Positions 5,278 to 15,347 of a stretch of 64,000 nt of DNA are shown piece after piece. The notes under the pieces are model-generated. The model saw only the letters and a program-made list of their open reading frames with translations, made no database searches and was not told the origin of the DNA. Both the position numbers and the translations under genes were made by a program. Source of the DNA: an uncultured Pelagibacteraceae bacterium (lineage in GTDB: Bacteria > Pseudomonadota > Alphaproteobacteria > Pelagibacterales > Pelagibacteraceae); contig CACGEW010000005.1 in the NCBI GenBank assembly GCA_902572345.1, positions 1 to 64,000 on the forward strand. The letters are read 5' to 3'. Position 1 is the first letter of the stretch. Each line of letters starts with the position of its first letter.

Positions 5278-6345
5278 TTAATTAATGTTGGATAGAACTG
5301 CTTTTGCGCACTGAACTGTATTGCTTGAACCGTGAAGATCTTTTGTTCGATTTTCTTTAACTGATAAAGTTTTTTCAATTGAATTTAATATAGATTTTGC
5401 TGCTTCTTTTTCTCCTAAATGATCAAGCATTAATGCACCTGACCATATTTGCCCTATTGGATTTGCAATACCTTTACCAGCAATATCTGGTGCTGAACCA
5501 TGAACTGGCTCAAATAACGAGGGATACTTATTTTCAGGATTAATGTTTCCTGACGGTGCGATACCTATAGTGCCGGTGCAGGCTGGGCCTAAATCTGATA
5601 AAATATCTCCAAACAAATTTGATGCAACCACTACATCAAACCACTCAGGAGTTAAAACAAATCTAGCAGTTAAAATATCTATATGAAATTGATCAGTTTT
5701 GATTTCAGGATATTTTTTTTTCATAATATCAAACCTTTCATCCCAAAATGGCATTGTAATTGAAATACCATTTGATTTTGTTGCATTAGTTACTTTTTTT
5801 CTTCCTTTAGATTTAGCTAATTCAAATGCGTATTTTTGAACTCTATCAACACCCTGTCTAGACATTATTGTTTCTTGAACGGCAATCTCTCTTTCAGTAT
5901 CTGCGTACATTCTGCCTCCAACTGAGGAATATTCTCCCTCCGTGTTTTCTCTTACTATTAACATATCTATATCGCCTGGTTTTTTGTTTGCTAAAGGACA
6001 CGGCACTCCATTAAATAATTTCACAGGTCTTAAATTTACATATTGATCAAATTCTCTTCTAAATTTTAACAATGATCCCCATAAACTAATATGGTCTGGG
6101 ACTTTTGAAGGATCCCCCACTGCTCCGAAAAAGATTGCGTCATGAGATCCAATTTTTTCTTTCCAATCATCAGGAAGCATTTTTCCATATTTTTGATAAT
6201 ATTCACATGAAGAAAAATCAAATTCATCAAATTGAATTTGAAACTGATGTTTTTTAGCAGTTTCTTTTAAAATCTTCAAACTTTCTGGAAGAACCTCCTT
6301 GCCTATTCCGTCTCCAGCAATAGATGCAATTTTATATTTCTTCAT
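5278..6345 (-). CDS. Isocitrate/isopropylmalate dehydrogenase family; D-malate/tartrate dehydrogenase-like
   Basis: 'IAGDGIGKEVLPE', 'LIVRENTEGEYSSVGG', 'LFEPVHGSAPDIAGKGIANP'. Confidence 0.8.
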   Translation of the reverse strand: MKKYKIASIAGDGIGKEVLPESLKILKETAKKHQFQIQFDEFDFSSCEYYQKYGKMLPDDWKEKIGSHDAIFFGAVGDPSKVPDHISLWGSLLKFRREFDQYVNLRPVKLFNGVPCPLANKKPGDIDMLIVRENTEGEYSSVGGRMYADTEREIAVQETIMSRQGVDRVQKYAFELAKSKGRKKVTNATKSNGISITMPFWDERFDIMKKKYPEIKTDQFHIDILTARFVLTPEWFDVVVASNLFGDILSDLGPACTGTIGIAPSGNINPENKYPSLFEPVHGSAPDIAGKGIANPIGQIWSGALMLDHLGEKEAAKSILNSIEKTLSVKENRTKDLHGSSNTVQCAKAVLSNIN

Positions 6346-6969
6346 TTAAGCAAATTTTTCTCTATAGAAATGTATTGGATCATACAATTCGGTGAATGCT
6401 TCACAATATTTAGACATTCTGGTGAATCGAAAAGGAATTTCTCCATTGAACATCTCTATATTGTTAGTATTTTTAGTTTTGAATTCTATAATAAGCTTAT
6501 CATTTTTTTTTATCTTATTATTATTAAAATAAGACTTATAATAAATATTTTGATCTAATGTTATTCTCACATCTTTTATTTGATAATATTCACGAGTATA
6601 TTCTATAATTAAATTAGGAAAACAATTTCCGTAAATATTATCATATATTCCTTTTTTAAGATAGTTGTTGAAATTGTTTAAATTGGTTTCTAAGGTTTTT
6701 TTATATTTACCTTCTGCGCTATTTATTTTGTATTCTAAACACCACGATTTTTTATCTTCATCTGGATAGTTTCTTAGCCTAATTTTTTTTCTAGGAACAA
6801 CACCTTCCTCAGAGTCTTTAAACATTTTATATTTTGAATTTTCAAAGTAAATGCTTCTTATACGTCTTTTGGGAAAAATAGATTTTCCGTTCATTTTCTT
6901 TATTAAATTTCTTATTTCGATGTAATTTACTCTAGCAAGTATAATTTTTTCCTCTTTTCTAAAACTCAT
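6346..6969 (-). CDS. VTC/TTM-fold domain protein (polyphosphate polymerase domain-like)
   Basis: 207 aa; 'FRKEEKI', 'RSIYFEN', 'KKIRLRNY', 'CLEYKI', 'KYKKT' follow the charged tunnel-strand pattern of bacterial VTC-domain proteins; next to a DUF4956-like protein. Confidence 0.7.
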   Translation of the reverse strand: MSFRKEEKIILARVNYIEIRNLIKKMNGKSIFPKRRIRSIYFENSKYKMFKDSEEGVVPRKKIRLRNYPDEDKKSWCLEYKINSAEGKYKKTLETNLNNFNNYLKKGIYDNIYGNCFPNLIIEYTREYYQIKDVRITLDQNIYYKSYFNNNKIKKNDKLIIEFKTKNTNNIEMFNGEIPFRFTRMSKYCEAFTELYDPIHFYREKFA

Positions 6970-9389
6970 AAATTATTAGATTTTAATATTTCAATATTAG
7001 ATTTATCATCAACTTCAATTTTTTTCGAGAACTCTTTACATTTAAAGTTTTTAACTTGAATTAAACCACCAGAAAATTCTTGTTTTTTATTATAAGCCTG
7101 TAAACAATACTCTGAATTACTTGAAAAAAAATTGTTAATTTTAACTTCTGCAAAATCTTTTGAGGCCACGACTGATTTAGATTTAATTGAATTAAGACTA
7201 TTTACATTTATATTGCTCAATTCACCTGCTGATATACCTTTATCACCACAATTTATCAAATCTATATCTTCAATTCTGTAATCTCCAAATGAAAAATCGG
7301 AACAGTCATTTCCGCTATTTTTAATATTAATTTTTTTAAAATAAAGTTTTGAAAAATCTCCATCCAATCCATCAAAAGATGAATTTGTAATATTTATTTT
7401 ATCAATTGATCCATTTGATCTAATAAAATTAATTGAGTCTTCACATTTGGCATCTTTTGTATTTATTTTTATATTTGCAACTTCCATATCAATCAATGAT
7501 ATGCATCCGGTTAGTCCGTTCGAGTCCCTTCTGATAATTTTAGATTTTTCAATTATCAAAGTATCTGTAAAATTTATTTCCCAGTCTTTCATATTGCCTT
7601 CAAAAATTACAATTTTACCTGACTTTTTAGATTTTATGATTTCAATTTTTTTTTTATTTTTATCTACTGTGAAATCAATGCCGCCAAACTTTTTAATCTT
7701 AAAATTATCAAACTGATATTCTTTCACTTGCAAAAATTTATTGAATTCTTTATTTCCAAACCATCCGTCAAAAATATCTTTTTTCTTATTTTTTCCAAGA
7801 AATATAAATTTTTTCTCTTTTTCTTTATATTTTTGAGAAATTAAATCTATAATTTTACTTTTATCTATTTTTAGATTCTTGCAGTTTTCACTCAATATAT
7901 TACAAGCTAAATATTCATTATTATGTTTTCCATTATATACTAGTAATCTATTGGCTTTATTAATTGAATTATCTTTAATAAATAAATTGTCGAAAATTTT
8001 TTTATTTTTAATATAAATTAAATTATTGTCTACTTTTTTTGTTTTTATAATTTTGTCTGCTTGTAAATTCTTTAAAAAGTTTAAATTGAATAAAATTTGA
8101 TCGATATATTTATCAAGAGTCTCTTTTTTAATTTTTACTCCTCTAGTTTTTAGTTTTAAGTGAAAACTTTTTTTGTCAATTTCATTTATTAAATCGTGAG
8201 CTTCTTCAGCAGTTGATGTAGAAACTTTAGGCACCTTACCTTTAAACATACCTGGATAATAAATATCTGGATTTTTATAAATTATTGAAATATTTTTACC
8301 TTCTAAATATTCCTTTTTTTTTAATTTGTTATCTTTATCCAATAAATCTGCTTGTCCATCGTAATAAATTGGAAAAAATTTTTTTGATATTGTATCAAAA
8401 TATATTCTTCTATTACCAGGAGTGAATGCATGTGTTGCATCCATTGAAATTAAAATTGTATCAAAGATTTTGAAATCTTTAAAAGAATTTTTATAAATAG
8501 TATTTTCTGCTGCGCCAACAAAATCTATCAGATCATCAGTATCAACATCACCCTGATCATAAAGAACGAGCTCATTTAAAATTGAAACACCAAATTCTGT
8601 TAAATATTTTTCATTTTTACCTTTTGAAATAAATTGATTGTTTATAGGTTTAAATTGGTGATTAAATACGGATCTTTTAATATTATATTTTTGCTTATCA
8701 CTAAAAGTGAATCTTTCATCACCTCTATAAACGGGATTTTCAATTTGATTATTAATTTCAATAAATTCCTTAACTATTTTCTCCTGAAAAATAAATTTTT
8801 TACTTTTATCATTGTAAGTTACTTGAACATTGGCCGTTCTAGGTGATAAAAAATTTATTTCATTTAAAAGAGTAGTTGCAATAACTTCATTATCGTATCC
8901 TCTTGTTATTGGTTTAAAAAGTATAAACTTTACTATCCCAAAAATATGACCATCTACTAAATTTACATTTAAGCTTGGAAGAAAATTCTCTGAGCGATGA
9001 TCAGCTAAATCACCATGGGGCCTGATTTTTGCTTTAATAAAACATTTTTTTTGTTTGTCTAACCCAACTACAATTCTGGCATCAACTCTTTTTCTAGTTT
9101 CATAAAATTTGTAATCGGAATTAAATTTTATTTGATTTTTTTTTGCTAAAATTTCTTCCTCAAGAAGTAATGTCTTCCATCTTCGATTATCTGAAATAAT
9201 AATCTCTAAATTTATTTTTTTAAATTCATTTGGATGTAATTGTAAGCTTTCTGAATAATTTAATTCATTACATTTTGGTATGCTGTTAATTTTAGTTTTT
9301 TTTATAATTTTATTTTGGTCGAAAACTATTTTTAAAATAATTGAAAATAGTAAAAATAAAAAAAAATACGAAACAATTCTTTTTACCAT
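6966..9389 (-). CDS. Exported/membrane-anchored CotH-like protein with C-terminal parallel beta-helix-like region
   Basis: 807 aa; N-terminal TM (IVSYFFLFLLFSIILKIVF); 'MDATHAFTPGNRRIYFDTISKKFFPIYYDG' resembles the CotH kinase-like core; C-terminus has repetitive short beta-strand pattern (INITNSSFDGLDGDFSKLYFKKINIKNSGNDCSDF). Confidence 0.6.
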   Translation of the reverse strand: MVKRIVSYFFLFLLFSIILKIVFDQNKIIKKTKINSIPKCNELNYSESLQLHPNEFKKINLEIIISDNRRWKTLLLEEEILAKKNQIKFNSDYKFYETRKRVDARIVVGLDKQKKCFIKAKIRPHGDLADHRSENFLPSLNVNLVDGHIFGIVKFILFKPITRGYDNEVIATTLLNEINFLSPRTANVQVTYNDKSKKFIFQEKIVKEFIEINNQIENPVYRGDERFTFSDKQKYNIKRSVFNHQFKPINNQFISKGKNEKYLTEFGVSILNELVLYDQGDVDTDDLIDFVGAAENTIYKNSFKDFKIFDTILISMDATHAFTPGNRRIYFDTISKKFFPIYYDGQADLLDKDNKLKKKEYLEGKNISIIYKNPDIYYPGMFKGKVPKVSTSTAEEAHDLINEIDKKSFHLKLKTRGVKIKKETLDKYIDQILFNLNFLKNLQADKIIKTKKVDNNLIYIKNKKIFDNLFIKDNSINKANRLLVYNGKHNNEYLACNILSENCKNLKIDKSKIIDLISQKYKEKEKKFIFLGKNKKKDIFDGWFGNKEFNKFLQVKEYQFDNFKIKKFGGIDFTVDKNKKKIEIIKSKKSGKIVIFEGNMKDWEINFTDTLIIEKSKIIRRDSNGLTGCISLIDMEVANIKINTKDAKCEDSINFIRSNGSIDKINITNSSFDGLDGDFSKLYFKKINIKNSGNDCSDFSFGDYRIEDIDLINCGDKGISAGELSNINVNSLNSIKSKSVVASKDFAEVKINNFFSSNSEYCLQAYNKKQEFSGGLIQVKNFKCKEFSKKIEVDDKSNIEILKSNNL

Positions 9390-10037
9390 TTAAGATTGCA
9401 AATCAGCTTTTACATTCACTATTCTTTTATCTTCTCTTATTTTTTTTTCAAAATCCTTTAATTCATTTCTTTCATTAAAAACAAGTCTGTAATAGTGATC
9501 ATTTTTTTCATGATAAAAATAAATCAATGATTTTGAGTTTTCAATTTCATCAATTCGCTCACTACTATTAATTTCAATTGAATAGTTTAAATTTCCATCT
9601 CCGAAAGAATAGTCAAATAAATTTAAACCAAACTTTCTAGTTATTATATTCGATAAACGTATTCCAAAAATTACAGAAACAATTAATAAAAAAAGCAGAA
9701 ATGCTAAATTCAAAGATACACTACAAGTTATTCCTAAAGTTAATAAACTAAAAAACATTACTAATTCAAATGGACTTTTTACTGGATTTCTGAATCGTAC
9801 TATTGATAATGCACCAATCATCCCAAGTGATAAAGCTATGTCAGATTTAATTACTGAAGTAATAATTAATGCTATAGATGGTAACAAAATATAAGTGCCA
9901 AGATGATGATAAGTGTTTGCCCATCTTTGACCCGATAAAACTAAAGATTGTCTGATAATAATTCCACTTATAGTTAAAAACAGTATTTTTATAAAATATG
10001 GATGTTGTAAATATTCGCTAAAATTTATAAGACTCAT
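9390..10037 (-). CDS. DUF4956-like membrane protein
   Basis: 215 aa; several TM helices then 'ALSLGMIGALSIVRFRNPVKSPFELVMFF' characteristic of DUF4956, then soluble C-terminus. Confidence 0.75.
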   Translation of the reverse strand: MSLINFSEYLQHPYFIKILFLTISGIIIRQSLVLSGQRWANTYHHLGTYILLPSIALIITSVIKSDIALSLGMIGALSIVRFRNPVKSPFELVMFFSLLTLGITCSVSLNLAFLLFLLIVSVIFGIRLSNIITRKFGLNLFDYSFGDGNLNYSIEINSSERIDEIENSKSLIYFYHEKNDHYYRLVFNERNELKDFEKKIREDKRIVNVKADLQS

Positions 10038-10039
10038 AT

Positions 10040-11020
10040 TTAATTAATTAACTTTTTTTCCCAGCTTATACAACTTTTTACTATTTTACCAAGATTATTG
10101 AATTTTGGTGTCCATTTAATGAATTTAATCAATTTCTCATTTGAGGCAATAATTTTAACCAGATCGTTTTTTCTTCTTTTTGCGAATATAATATCAACTT
10201 TTTTAGTTGTTTGACTTTTAAACTCTTTCGCTACGTCCAAAACTGAGGTGCCTTTATTGTATCCACAGTTGAGAATCTTTGAAATTTTTAATTTATCAAT
10301 TTTTTTTAAAATTAAAAAATGTATTTCAGCTATATCTGCGACATGTATGAAATCTCTAATACATGAACCATCTTTAGTTTTATAATCTGATCCATAAATT
10401 CTTAATTTCGGATTATTTTTCAAAATTTCTCTGGAAAAATTTTTAAATAAATGATCGCTTTTTTTATTGATCAATCCAAATTTACCTGACGGACTAGAGC
10501 CAGCTATATTGAAATATCTCAATATACCATAATTAATCTGATTTTTTTTTGCAAATTCCTTAATTAATTTTTCTGCTTTTAATTTTGTTTTTCCATATAC
10601 ACTTTTTGGTTTTATTATTGAATTTTCTGATACTCTATATTGTCCTTCTTTATAAATGGCTGCGGTAGATGAAAATATAAAATTTTTGACACCTGTTTGC
10701 TTACATGCATTGAGAATTTTTTTTGTTCCTAATACATTGTTCTTATAATATTTATCTGGTTTTTTTTGCCCTTCTTCAATAATTAAATTAGCTGCTAAAT
10801 GTATTATAGAGTCAATATTGAATTTTTTAATTAAATTATTTATCTTTAATTGATTTCGAATATTTATTTTAAAAAATTTGGCTTTTCTATTTAAAAGTTT
10901 TTTGTGACCAGTAGATAAATTATCAACTATAAAAACTTTTTTATTTTTTTTTAATAGAATTTCTGCAACATGAGAGCCTATATAACCTGCGCCGCCAGTA
11001 ATTAGAATATTTTTAATCAT
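10040..11020 (-). CDS. galE: UDP-glucose 4-epimerase family (extended SDR)
   Basis: 'ILITGGAGYIGSHVAEILL', 'FSSTAAIY', 'SVYGKTKLKAE' (YxxxK), 'ILRYFNIAGSSPSGKFG'. Confidence 0.85.
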   Translation of the reverse strand: MIKNILITGGAGYIGSHVAEILLKKNKKVFIVDNLSTGHKKLLNRKAKFFKINIRNQLKINNLIKKFNIDSIIHLAANLIIEEGQKKPDKYYKNNVLGTKKILNACKQTGVKNFIFSSTAAIYKEGQYRVSENSIIKPKSVYGKTKLKAEKLIKEFAKKNQINYGILRYFNIAGSSPSGKFGLINKKSDHLFKNFSREILKNNPKLRIYGSDYKTKDGSCIRDFIHVADIAEIHFLILKKIDKLKISKILNCGYNKGTSVLDVAKEFKSQTTKKVDIIFAKRRKNDLVKIIASNEKLIKFIKWTPKFNNLGKIVKSCISWEKKLIN

Positions 11021-11024
11021 ATTA

Positions 11025-11282
11025 TTAAGTTATATTAAACAACTTCTTTCCTAAAGGGCTTAATGGTTTCTGTGGAACTAAATCTTTACCAATTTTTTTT
11101 TTAGTTAATTCAAGTAGTTTTTTTGCTAACCCTTGTTTTCTAAAAGCTGGATTAACAAATATATATTCAATCTCACCATTATTATTAAAGCGAATAAACC
11201 CTATCGTCGTGTTTTTATTTTTAAATGTAATAACTCCATCATTTTCACTTATTAAATAATTTGAGATTTCATTTTTACTCAT
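11025..11282 (-). CDS. GNAT-family N-acetyltransferase-like small protein
   Basis: 85 aa; 'IEYIFVNPAFRKQGLAKKLLELTKKKI' is an acetyl-CoA binding motif A pattern. Confidence 0.65.
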   Translation of the reverse strand: MSKNEISNYLISENDGVITFKNKNTTIGFIRFNNNGEIEYIFVNPAFRKQGLAKKLLELTKKKIGKDLVPQKPLSPLGKKLFNIT

Positions 11283-11286
11283 AAAA

Positions 11287-11363
11287 TGGCGCGCCCTGAA
11301 GGATTCGAACCTACGACCCTCGGTTTAGAAAACCGATGCTCTATCCAACTGAGCTAAGGGCGC
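11287..11363 (-). tRNA. tRNA-Arg (anticodon TCT)
   Basis: Reverse complement GCGCCCTTAGCTCAGTTGGATAGAGCATCGGTTTTCTAAACCGAGGGTCGTAGGTTCGAATCCTTCAGGGCGCGCCA; 7-bp acceptor stem, TCGGT-TTTCTAA-ACCGA anticodon arm, GGTTCGAATCC T-arm, encoded CCA. Confidence 0.97.
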
Positions 11364-11381: not shown

Positions 11382-12440
11382 TTAAAAACACACTAGATGG
11401 TCAATATAAATCGGTGTCTTTACTCCAAATTTTTCTTCAACCTCATGTTGATGGATATGATGGGAATGTACAAATACAGGTATTAAATCATCATTTTTAG
11501 TTTTTAGTGTATAAATAAAATTAGTTCCTCTAAATTTTCTGTCAATTATTTCTAGTTTTAAATTGCTTTTATCATCATGTTCTAAATCGTCTGGTTGTAC
11601 TAACAATTTTACAGCAGTTCCTTTTTTATATTTTTTTACAAAATTTCCTTTAATCACTCCTAAGCACTTATGTTCAACACTGCTATCATTTAAAACTGTA
11701 GCATCCACTAATATTCCTCTATTTAAAAAATTTACCACTTCAATAGAATTTGGATAATGATAAATATTGTATGGTGTATCAAATTGCTTCATAGTTTGGC
11801 TTAAGAGTATTCCACAATAATCAGCCATGTAAAAAGCTTCGTAGGAATCGTGGGTTACTATGATTGTGGTAATTTTCTTCTCTTTTAAAATCTTTTTTAT
11901 ATTTTGTTGTAATTCAACTTTTAAGCTTTCATCAACATTTGAAAAAGGCTCATCAAGTAGAAGTAGATCTGGTTTTGACATCAACGATCTTGCCAGTGAA
12001 ACTCTTTGTGCTTCACCCGCGCTTACTTGGTGAGGGTATTTTTTCGCTAAACCCTCTAAATGCAAAAGTTTAATTAATTCGTCTGACTCAAAATTGTAAT
12101 TTGCATTTCTATTTCTTTTTGCACCAAAATTAATATTTTCTAAAATTGTATAGTGAGGGAATAAACTGTTATCTTGAAATGAGAGAGCTACATTTCTTTT
12201 TTCAGGTTCAATGTGATCAATTTCAGATGATAAAAGTCTCCCCTTTAAAAAAATCTTACCTTTAGGTATTTTTTGTAATCCAGCGATTGATCTAAGTATT
12301 GTTGTTTTTCCTATACCAGAAGGTCCTAATAAACAAATGATATCACCCTCATTTTTAATAGTAAGATTAAAATCTAATACTTTATTTTTTTTACTAGCCA
12401 CAAAAGTGGTATTATTGATTTCAAGAAAGTTAATAGACAT
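11382..12440 (-). CDS. fbpC: Fe(III) ABC transporter ATP-binding protein
   Basis: 'LGPSGIGKTTILRSIAGL', 'VSAGEAQRVSLARSLMSKPDLLLLDEPFSNVDESL'. Confidence 0.85.
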   Translation of the reverse strand: MSINFLEINNTTFVASKKNKVLDFNLTIKNEGDIICLLGPSGIGKTTILRSIAGLQKIPKGKIFLKGRLLSSEIDHIEPEKRNVALSFQDNSLFPHYTILENINFGAKRNRNANYNFESDELIKLLHLEGLAKKYPHQVSAGEAQRVSLARSLMSKPDLLLLDEPFSNVDESLKVELQQNIKKILKEKKITTIIVTHDSYEAFYMADYCGILLSQTMKQFDTPYNIYHYPNSIEVVNFLNRGILVDATVLNDSSVEHKCLGVIKGNFVKKYKKGTAVKLLVQPDDLEHDDKSNLKLEIIDRKFRGTNFIYTLKTKNDDLIPVFVHSHHIHQHEVEEKFGVKTPIYIDHLVCF

Positions 12441-12455
12441 ATATTGAATATAATA

Positions 12456-14114
12456 TTATTTTTCAGAAAGTATATGCTTAGAGGTGAAAAATATTAAAAT
12501 TCCAGACCAAAAGATAAGCAATAATGAAGGAAGCGCTGCCGCTTCAAGCAAATCTTGTGATGCATATGCGTAAGCTTTTGTTGCAAAAGTCTCAAAATTA
12601 AAAGGTCTAAGTATTAAAGTAATTGGTAATTCCTTAATGATTTCAATAGCAATTAAAATACTAACTAAATAAATACTGTTTTTTAAATTAGGAATATGAA
12701 CTTTTCTGAAAGTTCTAAATTTTGAATATCCTAATAAGTAAGAACTATCGTCAATGGACTGATTTATTTTAAGATAGCTCGATTTTATTCCATTAAATGC
12801 CAGAGAATAGAATCTAATAAAATATGCAGCTATTAATCCAAATATTGATCCAATAAATATACTCTTGATGCTTATCAGACCAAAATTGTTAGTAAGAATA
12901 TCACTTAACCACGAAAAAAATGAAATAAATGCTACGGCTAATATAACCCCAGGTATCGCATAACCTGAAATTGAAAACATACTTAAATTATCTAATATTT
13001 TACTTTTTGATATTCTGTTTCCAAAATTAATTAAAAAGGCTAACGAAATTAATACTAGACTAGCAAGAAATACTAATAATAAAGTATTTAAATTTAGTTC
13101 TAATATGTTCGTGTCTTGGAAATATTTAGGAAATTTAGCTGTCCAATAAATCATCTGGCTTAATGGAAATATAAAACTCAATAAAAAAATAAGTGAGCAA
13201 AAGAATATCGGATATAATGATTTTTTTCCCTTCAACTCAATTTTTGGTATTTTGCGAAAACCTGCATTAGTATTTTGATGATATTTTGCACCTCCACGTG
13301 AGTAATTTTCAACTAAAAATAAAGATAATATAATAATTAAAAGAATAAATGATAATTGATTAGCTGTATTCAAATCATCAAAAGCCAACCAAGAATTATA
13401 AATTCCAGTAGTTAAAGTTGAAACACTAAAAAAAGAAACTGTTCCAAAATCAGATAAACACTCCATAGCGACCAAAGATAAACCAGCTACAATTGCAGGT
13501 CTTGCTGAAGGTAATATGATTCTGAAAAAACTCTCTTTTGCAGATAAGCCTAAATTTTTACTCACTTCGATTAAGTTATTTGATTGGTGGTAAAATGAAG
13601 CTCGAGTTAAAACATAAACATATCCAAATAATGAAAAAGACATTGAAATAATTGCACCAAATATTCCATCAAATTTTGGTATATGTTTATTATAATTATA
13701 TTCACCAAATATCCATGTTAATAAAGAGAACAAAGACCCATAGTTTTCAAAAAAAGCAGTTAAAGAGTATGCATAAATATAAGCAGGAACAGCGAATGAT
13801 AATATTAGTGACCATTTAAAAAAATTTACTCCCCAAAAATTATAAAATGACACGAAGTAAGCAGAGAGCACCCCAAAAATAAAAGTTAAGGATAAAACCC
13901 CAAATAAAATTATTGTAGAATTTATTATGTAATCTTTTAAAAATGTTGATTTTAAAAGTTCCATATACTCACTTGTAGAACTAAAATAACTTGAAAAAAC
14001 AGTTAATATTGGAATTGCAACAAATAAAGATACCGCAAATGAACTAATATACCAAAAATTTGGTTTTTTATTTATCATTTGAAGGGGTTTAAGACTTGAA
14101 TTAAAAAACGTCAA
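12456..14114 (-). CDS. fbpB: Fe(III) ABC transporter permease (FbpB-type, two fused permease domains)
   Basis: 552 aa, about 12 TM, two permease loops ('EVSKNLGLSAKESFFRIILPSARPAIVAG', 'DDSSYLLGYSKFRTFRKVHIPNLKNS'). Confidence 0.87.
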   Translation of the reverse strand: MTFFNSSLKPLQMINKKPNFWYISSFAVSLFVAIPILTVFSSYFSSTSEYMELLKSTFLKDYIINSTIILFGVLSLTFIFGVLSAYFVSFYNFWGVNFFKWSLILSFAVPAYIYAYSLTAFFENYGSLFSLLTWIFGEYNYNKHIPKFDGIFGAIISMSFSLFGYVYVLTRASFYHQSNNLIEVSKNLGLSAKESFFRIILPSARPAIVAGLSLVAMECLSDFGTVSFFSVSTLTTGIYNSWLAFDDLNTANQLSFILLIIILSLFLVENYSRGGAKYHQNTNAGFRKIPKIELKGKKSLYPIFFCSLIFLLSFIFPLSQMIYWTAKFPKYFQDTNILELNLNTLLLVFLASLVLISLAFLINFGNRISKSKILDNLSMFSISGYAIPGVILAVAFISFFSWLSDILTNNFGLISIKSIFIGSIFGLIAAYFIRFYSLAFNGIKSSYLKINQSIDDSSYLLGYSKFRTFRKVHIPNLKNSIYLVSILIAIEIIKELPITLILRPFNFETFATKAYAYASQDLLEAAALPSLLLIFWSGILIFFTSKHILSEK

Positions 14115-14118
14115 TTAC

Positions 14119-14289
14119 TTATTTTTCTTTAAATATTGAGGAAACTATACTTTTAATCTCTTGTATTTTCATTTCGGAAAGATCTCTACTCGCAATTTTT
14201 CTCTGCATTTTTTTAACTTCATTCATACAAGGCGAACATCCAGTTTTCAAACTGTTCAAATTCACATCTTTTTTTAATGTTCGCCTCAT
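14119..14289 (-). CDS. Small CxxC-containing protein (56 aa) inside the iron-transport operon; not in ORF track
   Basis: ATG at 14287-14289: MRRTLKKDVNLNSLKTGCSPCMNEVKKMQRKIASRDLSEMKIQEIKSIVSSIFKEK*; 4-bp gap to fbpB start and 23-bp gap to fbpA stop. Confidence 0.6.
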   Translation of the reverse strand: MRRTLKKDVNLNSLKTGCSPCMNEVKKMQRKIASRDLSEMKIQEIKSIVSSIFKEK

Positions 14290-14312
14290 AACTTAACTAA
14301 CAACTTTGGGTC

Positions 14313-15347
14313 TTACTTCCAACCTGCGCCTGTCATTGCTGCAAGAGCGTCGGCTTGTAATTTACCGTAGTTAACGACTTTAGTTTTAAGATCTTGTTTA
14401 AAATCTAACCCCATATTAACTACTAGTGGATGCGGTGAAACACCTGCAATCATTGGATACTCAAAAGTATTATTTACTATGTGGTTTTGTGCTTCTTCAC
14501 TTAGTAAAAATTCTACTAATTTTATCGCATTAGCTTTATTTGGTGCTCCTTTAACAAGTCCTGCACCACTAATGTTCATGTGGGTTCCTCTGCCATCTTG
14601 ATTTGGAAAGAAAGGTTTAACTTTTTTAGCTGCTGCTTGCTGCTCAGGTCCTTTTTTACCTGATAGCATAAGTGCTAAATAGTAAGTATTAGCTACAGCT
14701 ATATCCGCTTCGCCTGCTGCTACTGCAAGTATTTGAGCTCTATCATTTCCTTTTGGTGCTCTTGCCATATTAGCAACCATACCTTTTGACCAGTCAGCTA
14801 CAGCTCCTTTACCATTGTTTTTTATTAAAGATGCCACTAAAGACTGGTTGTAGATATTGTTAGACGCTCTTATAACAACTCTGCCTTTCCATTTTGGATC
14901 AGCTAAGCTTTCATAAGTTAAACCTGCTAATTCAGCTCCTGATACTCTCTCCGGTGCGAAATAAACTATACGTGCTCTTTTTGCTATACCTGTCCATTTA
15001 GAAGTTCTAAAATTACTCGGTACAGCAGATTTAATAACTTTTGTGTTTAACCCACCTTGAAGCATTCCTTTAGCATCAAAAGCTCCTAATCTTCCTGCAT
15101 CAGCAGTTATATAAAGGTCGGCTACACTGTCGGCACCTTCCTCTATTATTCTTTTCTCTAAAGCACCAGATTTTCCAGATATTACGTTTACTTTAATACC
15201 AGTTTTAGCTGTGAACTTTTCGTATAATTGAACATCAGAGTCATAATGTCTTGCACTGAAAATATTTACTTCATTAGCAAATAAACTAGAAACAAATGCA
15301 AATAACAATAAAACTGATGTTAATGTAACTTTTTTCATATTTTTCAT
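14313..15347 (-). CDS. fbpA: Fe(III) ABC transporter periplasmic substrate-binding protein
   Basis: Signal peptide + 'NEVNIFSARHYDSDVQLYEKFTAKTGIKVNVI', 'GRGTHMNISGAGLVKGAPN', typical FbpA/FutA family. Confidence 0.9.
   Translation of the reverse strand: MKNMKKVTLTSVLLLFAFVSSLFANEVNIFSARHYDSDVQLYEKFTAKTGIKVNVISGKSGALEKRIIEEGADSVADLYITADAGRLGAFDAKGMLQGGLNTKVIKSAVPSNFRTSKWTGIAKRARIVYFAPERVSGAELAGLTYESLADPKWKGRVVIRASNNIYNQSLVASLIKNNGKGAVADWSKGMVANMARAPKGNDRAQILAVAAGEADIAVANTYYLALMLSGKKGPEQQAAAKKVKPFFPNQDGRGTHMNISGAGLVKGAPNKANAIKLVEFLLSEEAQNHIVNNTFEYPMIAGVSPHPLVVNMGLDFKQDLKTKVVNYGKLQADALAAMTGAGWK

Follow-up and report, generated by a model that had tools for sequence, protein, structure and literature searches.

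A horizontally exchanged three-gene unit of VTC-domain, CotH-fold/beta-helix and DUF4956 proteins in marine picoplankton, with a possible role in linking polyphosphate to a surface glycan

A conserved unit of three genes, encoding a VTC-domain protein (207 amino acids [aa]; positions 6346..6969), a CotH-fold/beta-helix protein (807 aa; 6966..9389) and a DUF4956 membrane protein (215 aa; 9390..10037), was identified in an uncultured Pelagibacteraceae bacterium with a small genome of 990,790 bases. The window analyzed is the whole 64,000-nucleotide stretch at positions 1-64,000 of contig CACGEW010000005.1; coordinates given without a locus label are window positions, and all features described between 5278 and 11363 lie on the minus strand. 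The preliminary description had joined these genes to a GalE-type epimerase gene (326 aa; 10040..11020) in a tightly coupled four-gene module. An open reading frame (ORF) check of the window confirmed that four adjacent genes are present and tightly spaced, the VTC/CotH, CotH/DUF4956 and DUF4956/GalE junctions being a 4-bp overlap, 0 bp and 2 bp, respectively. The conserved module, however, consists of three genes and not four. In the best model, to which we assign a probability of roughly 0.42, the VTC protein would make polyphosphate, DUF4956 would pass it on, and the CotH-fold/beta-helix protein would use it or anchor it on a surface glycan.

A gene-neighborhood survey showed that VTC, CotH and DUF4956 are co-conserved in Pelagibacterales and beyond. 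Of the 197 family genomes surveyed, 35 encode VTC, 37 encode DUF4956 and 34 encode the CotH/beta-helix protein; VTC and DUF4956 are both present in 34 genomes and the complete trio in 32, with pairwise Fisher p values of about 1e-32 to 1e-34 that count as independent genomes that in fact are not. A collection of 85,462 species genomes, queried with a closer subset of alignment A1 (the full alignment being too divergent as a query), contained at least 389 relatives; the best 80 loci by similarity were analyzed, a choice from which abundance among taxa is not readable. Among these 80, 68 loci are long enough for the whole trio, and 66 of the 68 keep the order DUF4956, CotH, VTC in one direction, with intergenic gaps mostly within about 20 bp. 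The carriers include Pelagibacteraceae, SAR116, SAR86, Prochlorococcus, Actinomarina, roseobacters and Flavobacteriales, among others; one Prochlorococcus strain with the trio is MIT 9201.

The GalE ORF matches Pfam Epimerase (E = 1e-52) and exceeds the cut-off of TIGR01179 (GalE), but its inclusion in the module was ruled out, as GalE occupies this same locus in five relatives that lack the trio there, and in most loci that do have the trio no GalE adjoins it. It belongs to a separate variable slot, bordered upstream by a tRNA-Arg(TCT) gene (11287..11363; ARAGORN and Rfam) and downstream by a tartrate dehydrogenase-like gene (5278..6345; TIGR02089, 568 bits versus an NCBIfam cut-off of 470). 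The dehydrogenase occupies the same position in relatives with 86-96% identity, and in the nearest relative at this locus (L232) it and the ABC protein are 96-97% identical. The slot is empty in L233 and L237, where tRNA-Arg lies 10 bp from the dehydrogenase gene; elsewhere it holds GNAT only (L236), GNAT and GalE (L232), GalE only (L234, L235, L238 and L239) or GalE and the trio (L081). From these contents, the trio has clean borders, with GalE on one side and the dehydrogenase on the other.

The VTC/TTM (triphosphate tunnel metalloenzyme) fold anticipated for the 207-aa protein was borne out by a match to Pfam PF09359 (E = 1.1e-21, 77.9 bits, cut-off of 23) and by a match of its family profile to Vtc4 (3G3Q) at E = 2.9e-12. 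Residues R4, E6, K8, K62, R64, R66, E79, K81, K90, R126, R135, D139, E162, K164, S186 and K187 are invariant in 28 members, so that the basic tunnel residues and the metal Glu are conserved, and all mappable tunnel residues of Vtc4 are kept in the alignment. R264, R266 and E426 of Vtc4 align with the invariant R64, R66 and E162, and the R264A/R266A/E426N triple mutant has been used as a catalytically impaired VTC (PMC9911596). The protein is a predicted cytosolic polyphosphate polymerase that would use ATP. Neither PPK1 nor PPK2 was found in the source genome (completeness, 92%), and PPK2 was found in none of 94 family genomes. Pfam detected neither SPX nor DUF202 domains in the three trio proteins.

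The DUF4956 ORF matches PF16316 with an E value of 5.4e-8 (33.2 bits, cut-off of 30.6). Its AlphaFold model (pLDDT of 89.3) shows five helices and a ferredoxin/ACT-like C-terminal domain, and the helix spanning residues 67 to 83 is closed by a GALSI-x-R-x-R motif (R81, R83) that is invariant in the alignments. In a Foldseek fold search, the C-terminal domain alone found matches, all of them to ACT/Lrp-like structures and with no E value below 0.02. VTC is rare among 398 Pseudomonadota genomes, with 8 over the cut-off, and all 8 also contain DUF4956 (p = 3e-15), which in nearly all of them adjoins VTC or sits one CotH gene away. Six Pseudomonadota VTC-DUF4956 loci, from five genomes of one alphaproteobacterial family, have no CotH in the neighborhood examined. 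Two of these six pairs (L175:8199-10772 and L183:6023-8443) directly adjoin a PHO4 phosphate transporter gene. The yeast VTC channel is lined with Lys and Arg (PMC9911596), and DUF4956 may be an analogous conduit, a proposal made because of its pairing with VTC and its charge and not because of homology.

The CotH-like core of the 807-aa protein, also proposed beforehand, was located at approximately residues 94 to 407 (8169..9110). The window protein, taken alone, is too divergent to be recognized by the Pfam CotH model (PF08757), and a PDB search with this single protein returned chance matches only. A profile of 34 relatives matches Bacillus cereus CotH (5JD9) with an E value of 1.8e-13 over residues 94 to 407. 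The AlphaFold model (pLDDT of 87.6, pTM of 0.89) retrieved 5JDA and 5JD9 with Foldseek at E = 2-3e-9, the only matches below 0.001; weaker matches were to HipA-like kinases, Fam20A and, for the C-terminal part, beta-helix enzymes.

A check of the CotH catalytic residues gave a divided result, with the metal-binding Asp retained and the essential Asp lost. In the 5JD9 construct, FDGF and PWDYD form the catalytic pair, 23 residues apart, which is the spacing of D228 and D251 in Bacillus subtilis CotH. At the D228 position the window protein has His320, and His is also what 30 of the 34 members and more than 90% of a 58-member set have there; D228Q abolishes the activity of B. subtilis CotH (PMC7821199). 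The equivalent of D251 is D344, kept in 32 of 34 members (A1) and invariant in alignment A5. E203 is likewise invariant, and a family-specific GDxxDH motif (residues 126 to 131) is strongly conserved. Both Asp residues are lost in the L041, L053 and L152 ORF 4 subfamilies, and a canonical CotH found beside VTC and DUF4956 in L180 keeps the catalytic Asp. The domain is a true CotH relative but probably not a standard kinase; the view of CotH as an ordinary kinase is not supported, because the essential position is His in almost all members. The protein carries a hydrophobic N-terminal helix (signal or anchor) and a short-form subfamily has conserved cysteines, features that fit a location outside the cytosol, and it is predicted to be extracytoplasmic, either membrane anchored or secreted. 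A long-form subtype (about 875 to 925 aa; L041, L042 and L048-L052) is accompanied by an extra, unassigned gene of about 340 aa that is situated between or beside the trio genes.

The C terminus of the 807-aa model forms the beta-helix that had been suspected, of the right-handed type (approximately residues 557 to 802; 6984..7721), with Foldseek matches to AlgE4, PL3 pectate lyases and polygalacturonases. The strongest conservation of the protein resides here, in a strip of 15 invariant residues (14 polar and one Gly; 7086..7439) spaced about one coil apart: D651, D673, D676, D678, D695, D698, D716, K717, S720, G722, E723, S725, K744, D745 and K768. Profile comparisons of the beta-helix gave E values of 3e-4 with GH28 and 8e-4 with PL3 (single comparisons, with hhalign probabilities of 39% and 24%), and reversed or shuffled controls were all at 0.14 or worse. 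The motifs SDxxDxD, NDC, DKGIS and ASKD stand in register with NTDGID, DD, GHGIS and RIK of GH28, and there is also register with the DK motif of PL3. This supports a putative active site or metal/substrate site of a pectin-lyase-like kind, but not membership in GH28 or PL3.

Five CotH/beta-helix relatives (L066:6122-9109, L082:618-3527, L091:2-2707, L124:6902-9847 and L152:6169-9174) carry at their C terminus a complete family I inorganic pyrophosphatase domain (PF00719; E values of 1e-29 to 1e-32), which is absent from the window protein. These fusions and the PHO4 neighbors together tie the system to phosphate chemistry. The tail of a further relative, L071, resembles only the end of the pyrophosphatase domain.

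According to the best model, the VTC-domain protein would polymerize polyphosphate in the cytosol from ATP, and DUF4956, as its membrane partner, would move the chain across the inner membrane in the role played by the transmembrane domains of yeast VTC. Outside the membrane, the CotH-fold/beta-helix protein would encounter polyphosphate, which would take the place of ATP, absent on that side. The kinase-like fold would bind or transfer phosphate, and the beta-helix, built like enzymes that act on uronate polymers, would bind or act on a surface polysaccharide, the product being a phosphate- or polyphosphate-bearing surface glycan. The analysis establishes the families, folds, conserved residues, gene order, co-occurrence and transfer; polyphosphate as the product, the conduit role of DUF4956, the orientation of the large protein, the glycan target and phosphotransfer are inferred. 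The preliminary description had envisaged a dedicated system for a cell-surface component; a link to surface glycans is plausible, given the carbohydrate-active type of beta-helix and the sugar genes frequent nearby, whereas the part assigned to GalE falls. A more explicit form of the model, in which a soluble VTC protein and a DUF4956 channel make up a split VTC complex and the exported polyphosphate is the donor for a non-canonical CotH-fold transferase with a glycan-active beta-helix, seems to us rather unlikely.

Several points weigh against the model. Apart from GalE, the immediate neighbors at this locus include no polysaccharide genes, and polyphosphate as the product is a prediction from sequence and not from direct evidence. 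PPK1 and VTC look nearly mutually exclusive in the 94 family genomes (PPK1 in 1 of 13 VTC-bearing versus 32 of 81 VTC-less genomes; p = 0.03), but this anticorrelation is suggestive only, being uncorrected for phylogeny or completeness. With its catalytic Asp replaced, phosphotransfer by the CotH-fold domain is doubtful. Foldseek gave no match of DUF4956 to the VTC membrane domains. For the beta-helix, the Pfam PL3 match seen in one member (17.8 bits) is below the cut-off of 25, and a PDB search with the domain profile returned nothing at E values up to 10.

Among the alternatives, the one that survives best, although unlikely, is that polyphosphate is synthesized and exported by the trio to be stored or to chelate metal, the polymer being merely held on the envelope with no glycan chemistry. 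The CotH-fold part would then be a polyphosphate-binding pseudokinase and the beta-helix a glycan anchor. Such a role would agree with the loss of the catalytic Asp, with the pyrophosphatase fusions, which could recover phosphate, with PHO4 adjoining the two-gene form and with an invariant acidic strip that could bind metal; however, an anchor would not need 15 invariant, nearly all polar residues in an active-site-like strip.

In Gram-positive bacteria, CotH, a polyphosphate polymerase and DUF4956, together with DUF4832, are accessory genes contiguous with pel operons, and a regulatory kinase role has been suggested for this CotH (Whitfield et al. 2020, PMC7112168). The same three families are contiguous in both settings, and the function is settled in neither. 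The published cluster is linked to exopolysaccharide. The flanks examined at this locus show no contiguity with pelDEADAFG. Here, moreover, CotH lacks the catalytic Asp and continues into a beta-helix that bears an invariant strip, the hosts are marine picoplankton, and some relatives have a pyrophosphatase fusion. A protein kinase acting outside the cytosol to regulate exopolysaccharide production, the role put forward for the Pel-linked cluster, would be consistent with true CotH homology and with the conservation of E203 and D344, but it is improbable for the trio, which has no adjacent polysaccharide operon, has His at a position where substitution kills B. subtilis CotH, and has an invariant strip that such a role leaves unexplained.

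TTM enzymes have varied substrates, and the 207-aa protein could act on another triphosphate, a nucleotide or sugar nucleotide, making a surface-polymer precursor and no polyphosphate. Sugar-nucleotide genes are frequent near the trio, with an epimerase-type gene within five genes of it in 26 of 81 loci (a raw count without a background rate). Yet Vtc4 is the nearest match, none of the mapped polymerase residues varies, and the PHO4 neighbors and pyrophosphatase fusions indicate phosphate; this proposal is likewise improbable. A defence or selfish cassette at a tRNA hotspot would suit the variable slot beside tRNA-Arg, the patchy presence and the cross-phylum transfer described below, but is very improbable, since the trio has no PADLOC or PHROGs match, no relative was found in 2.9 million viral contigs, and inspection of the slot revealed no integrase.

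In a tree of 58 proteins several groups are split, with Prochlorococcus in two places and a Flavobacteriales sequence sister to a SAR116 sequence (support of 100/100), and Pelagibacteraceae need at least seven label changes. These features indicate frequent horizontal transfer, and as judged from this protein tree, which requires transfer, the trio is exchanged horizontally. Some carriers are metagenome-assembled, and single placements could be binning errors; the general point is safe because cultured or single-cell carriers exist (Prochlorococcus, SAR86, Actinomarina and Brevirhabdus). In cultured Brevirhabdus pacifica DSM 27767 (L129:6719-8938), the CotH/beta-helix protein occurs without VTC or DUF4956 in the 16 kb examined.

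The eukaryotic VTC complex (Vtc4, 3G3Q; PMC9911596) resembles the present system in its TTM fold, its catalytic tunnel residues and a polymerase encoded with a membrane partner. It differs in that the polymerase here has 207 aa without an SPX or DUF202 domain, and the membrane protein is a separate DUF4956 with no detected relation to Vtc membrane domains. The CotH spore-coat kinase (5JD9/5JDA) shares the fold, E203 and the metal Asp, whereas the protein described here has His for D228, the GDxxDH motif, a fused beta-helix and marine hosts that are not spore formers. The beta-helices of PL3, GH28 and AlgE4 share the fold and an Asp/Lys strip in the same register (SDxxDxD with NTDGID and NDC with DD; further, DKGIS with DKxxQ or GHGIS and ASKD with RIK), but the window protein is below the family cut-offs and has Lys for the His of GHG.

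The CotH/polyphosphate polymerase/DUF4956 combination is itself already published, with its function unexplained (PMC7112168), and one Clostridium perfringens locus contains both VTC and CotH genes (PMC2879425). No report of the trio in SAR11 was found in the literature searched, which covered subscription journals thinly. Not found there, and possibly new, are the fusion to a beta-helix that carries an invariant strip, the replacement of Asp by His, the pyrophosphatase fusions, the strict pairing of VTC with DUF4956, the distribution across marine picoplankton and the finding that GalE lies outside the module.

How extracytoplasmic enzymes obtain high-energy phosphate is an open problem, and the source of ATP was called an unanswered question in a CotH study (PMC7821199). 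With a polymerase and a membrane partner encoded beside a CotH-fold protein, polyphosphate becomes a directly testable answer, and DUF4956 gains a candidate function. The trio also presents a kinase-fold family that has lost its catalytic Asp, with a fused beta-helix that has remained invariant. Hosts of the trio include some of the most abundant marine bacteria, whose habitat is often poor in phosphorus and whose encounters with phages and grazers are influenced by surface glycans. If the more explicit form of the model is true, ocean bacteria would be exchanging a system in which polyphosphate powers the modification of surface polysaccharides.

As a cargo slot, the interval from tRNA-Arg(TCT) to the tartrate dehydrogenase gene (5278-11363; L232-L239) differs among close relatives in at least five ways, and no obvious attachment repeat was seen; its further optional cargo in the window is a small GNAT protein (85 aa; 11025..11282; Pfam GNAT). 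The locus is flanked by amino-acid ABC transporter genes, ZapE, the tartrate dehydrogenase, tRNA-Arg and an ABC transporter. The ABC transporter genes beside the slot (11382-15347) resemble 2-aminoethylphosphonate, ferric and polyamine transporters, all below curated cut-offs. Promoter and terminator scans of this AT-rich stretch gave nothing informative. The same genome contains a second, more divergent trio, with a 42% identical DUF4956 and a 38% identical VTC, that is apparently split by an assembly gap between the end of contig C6 (93337-95110, L079) and contig C19 (1-1062, L058).

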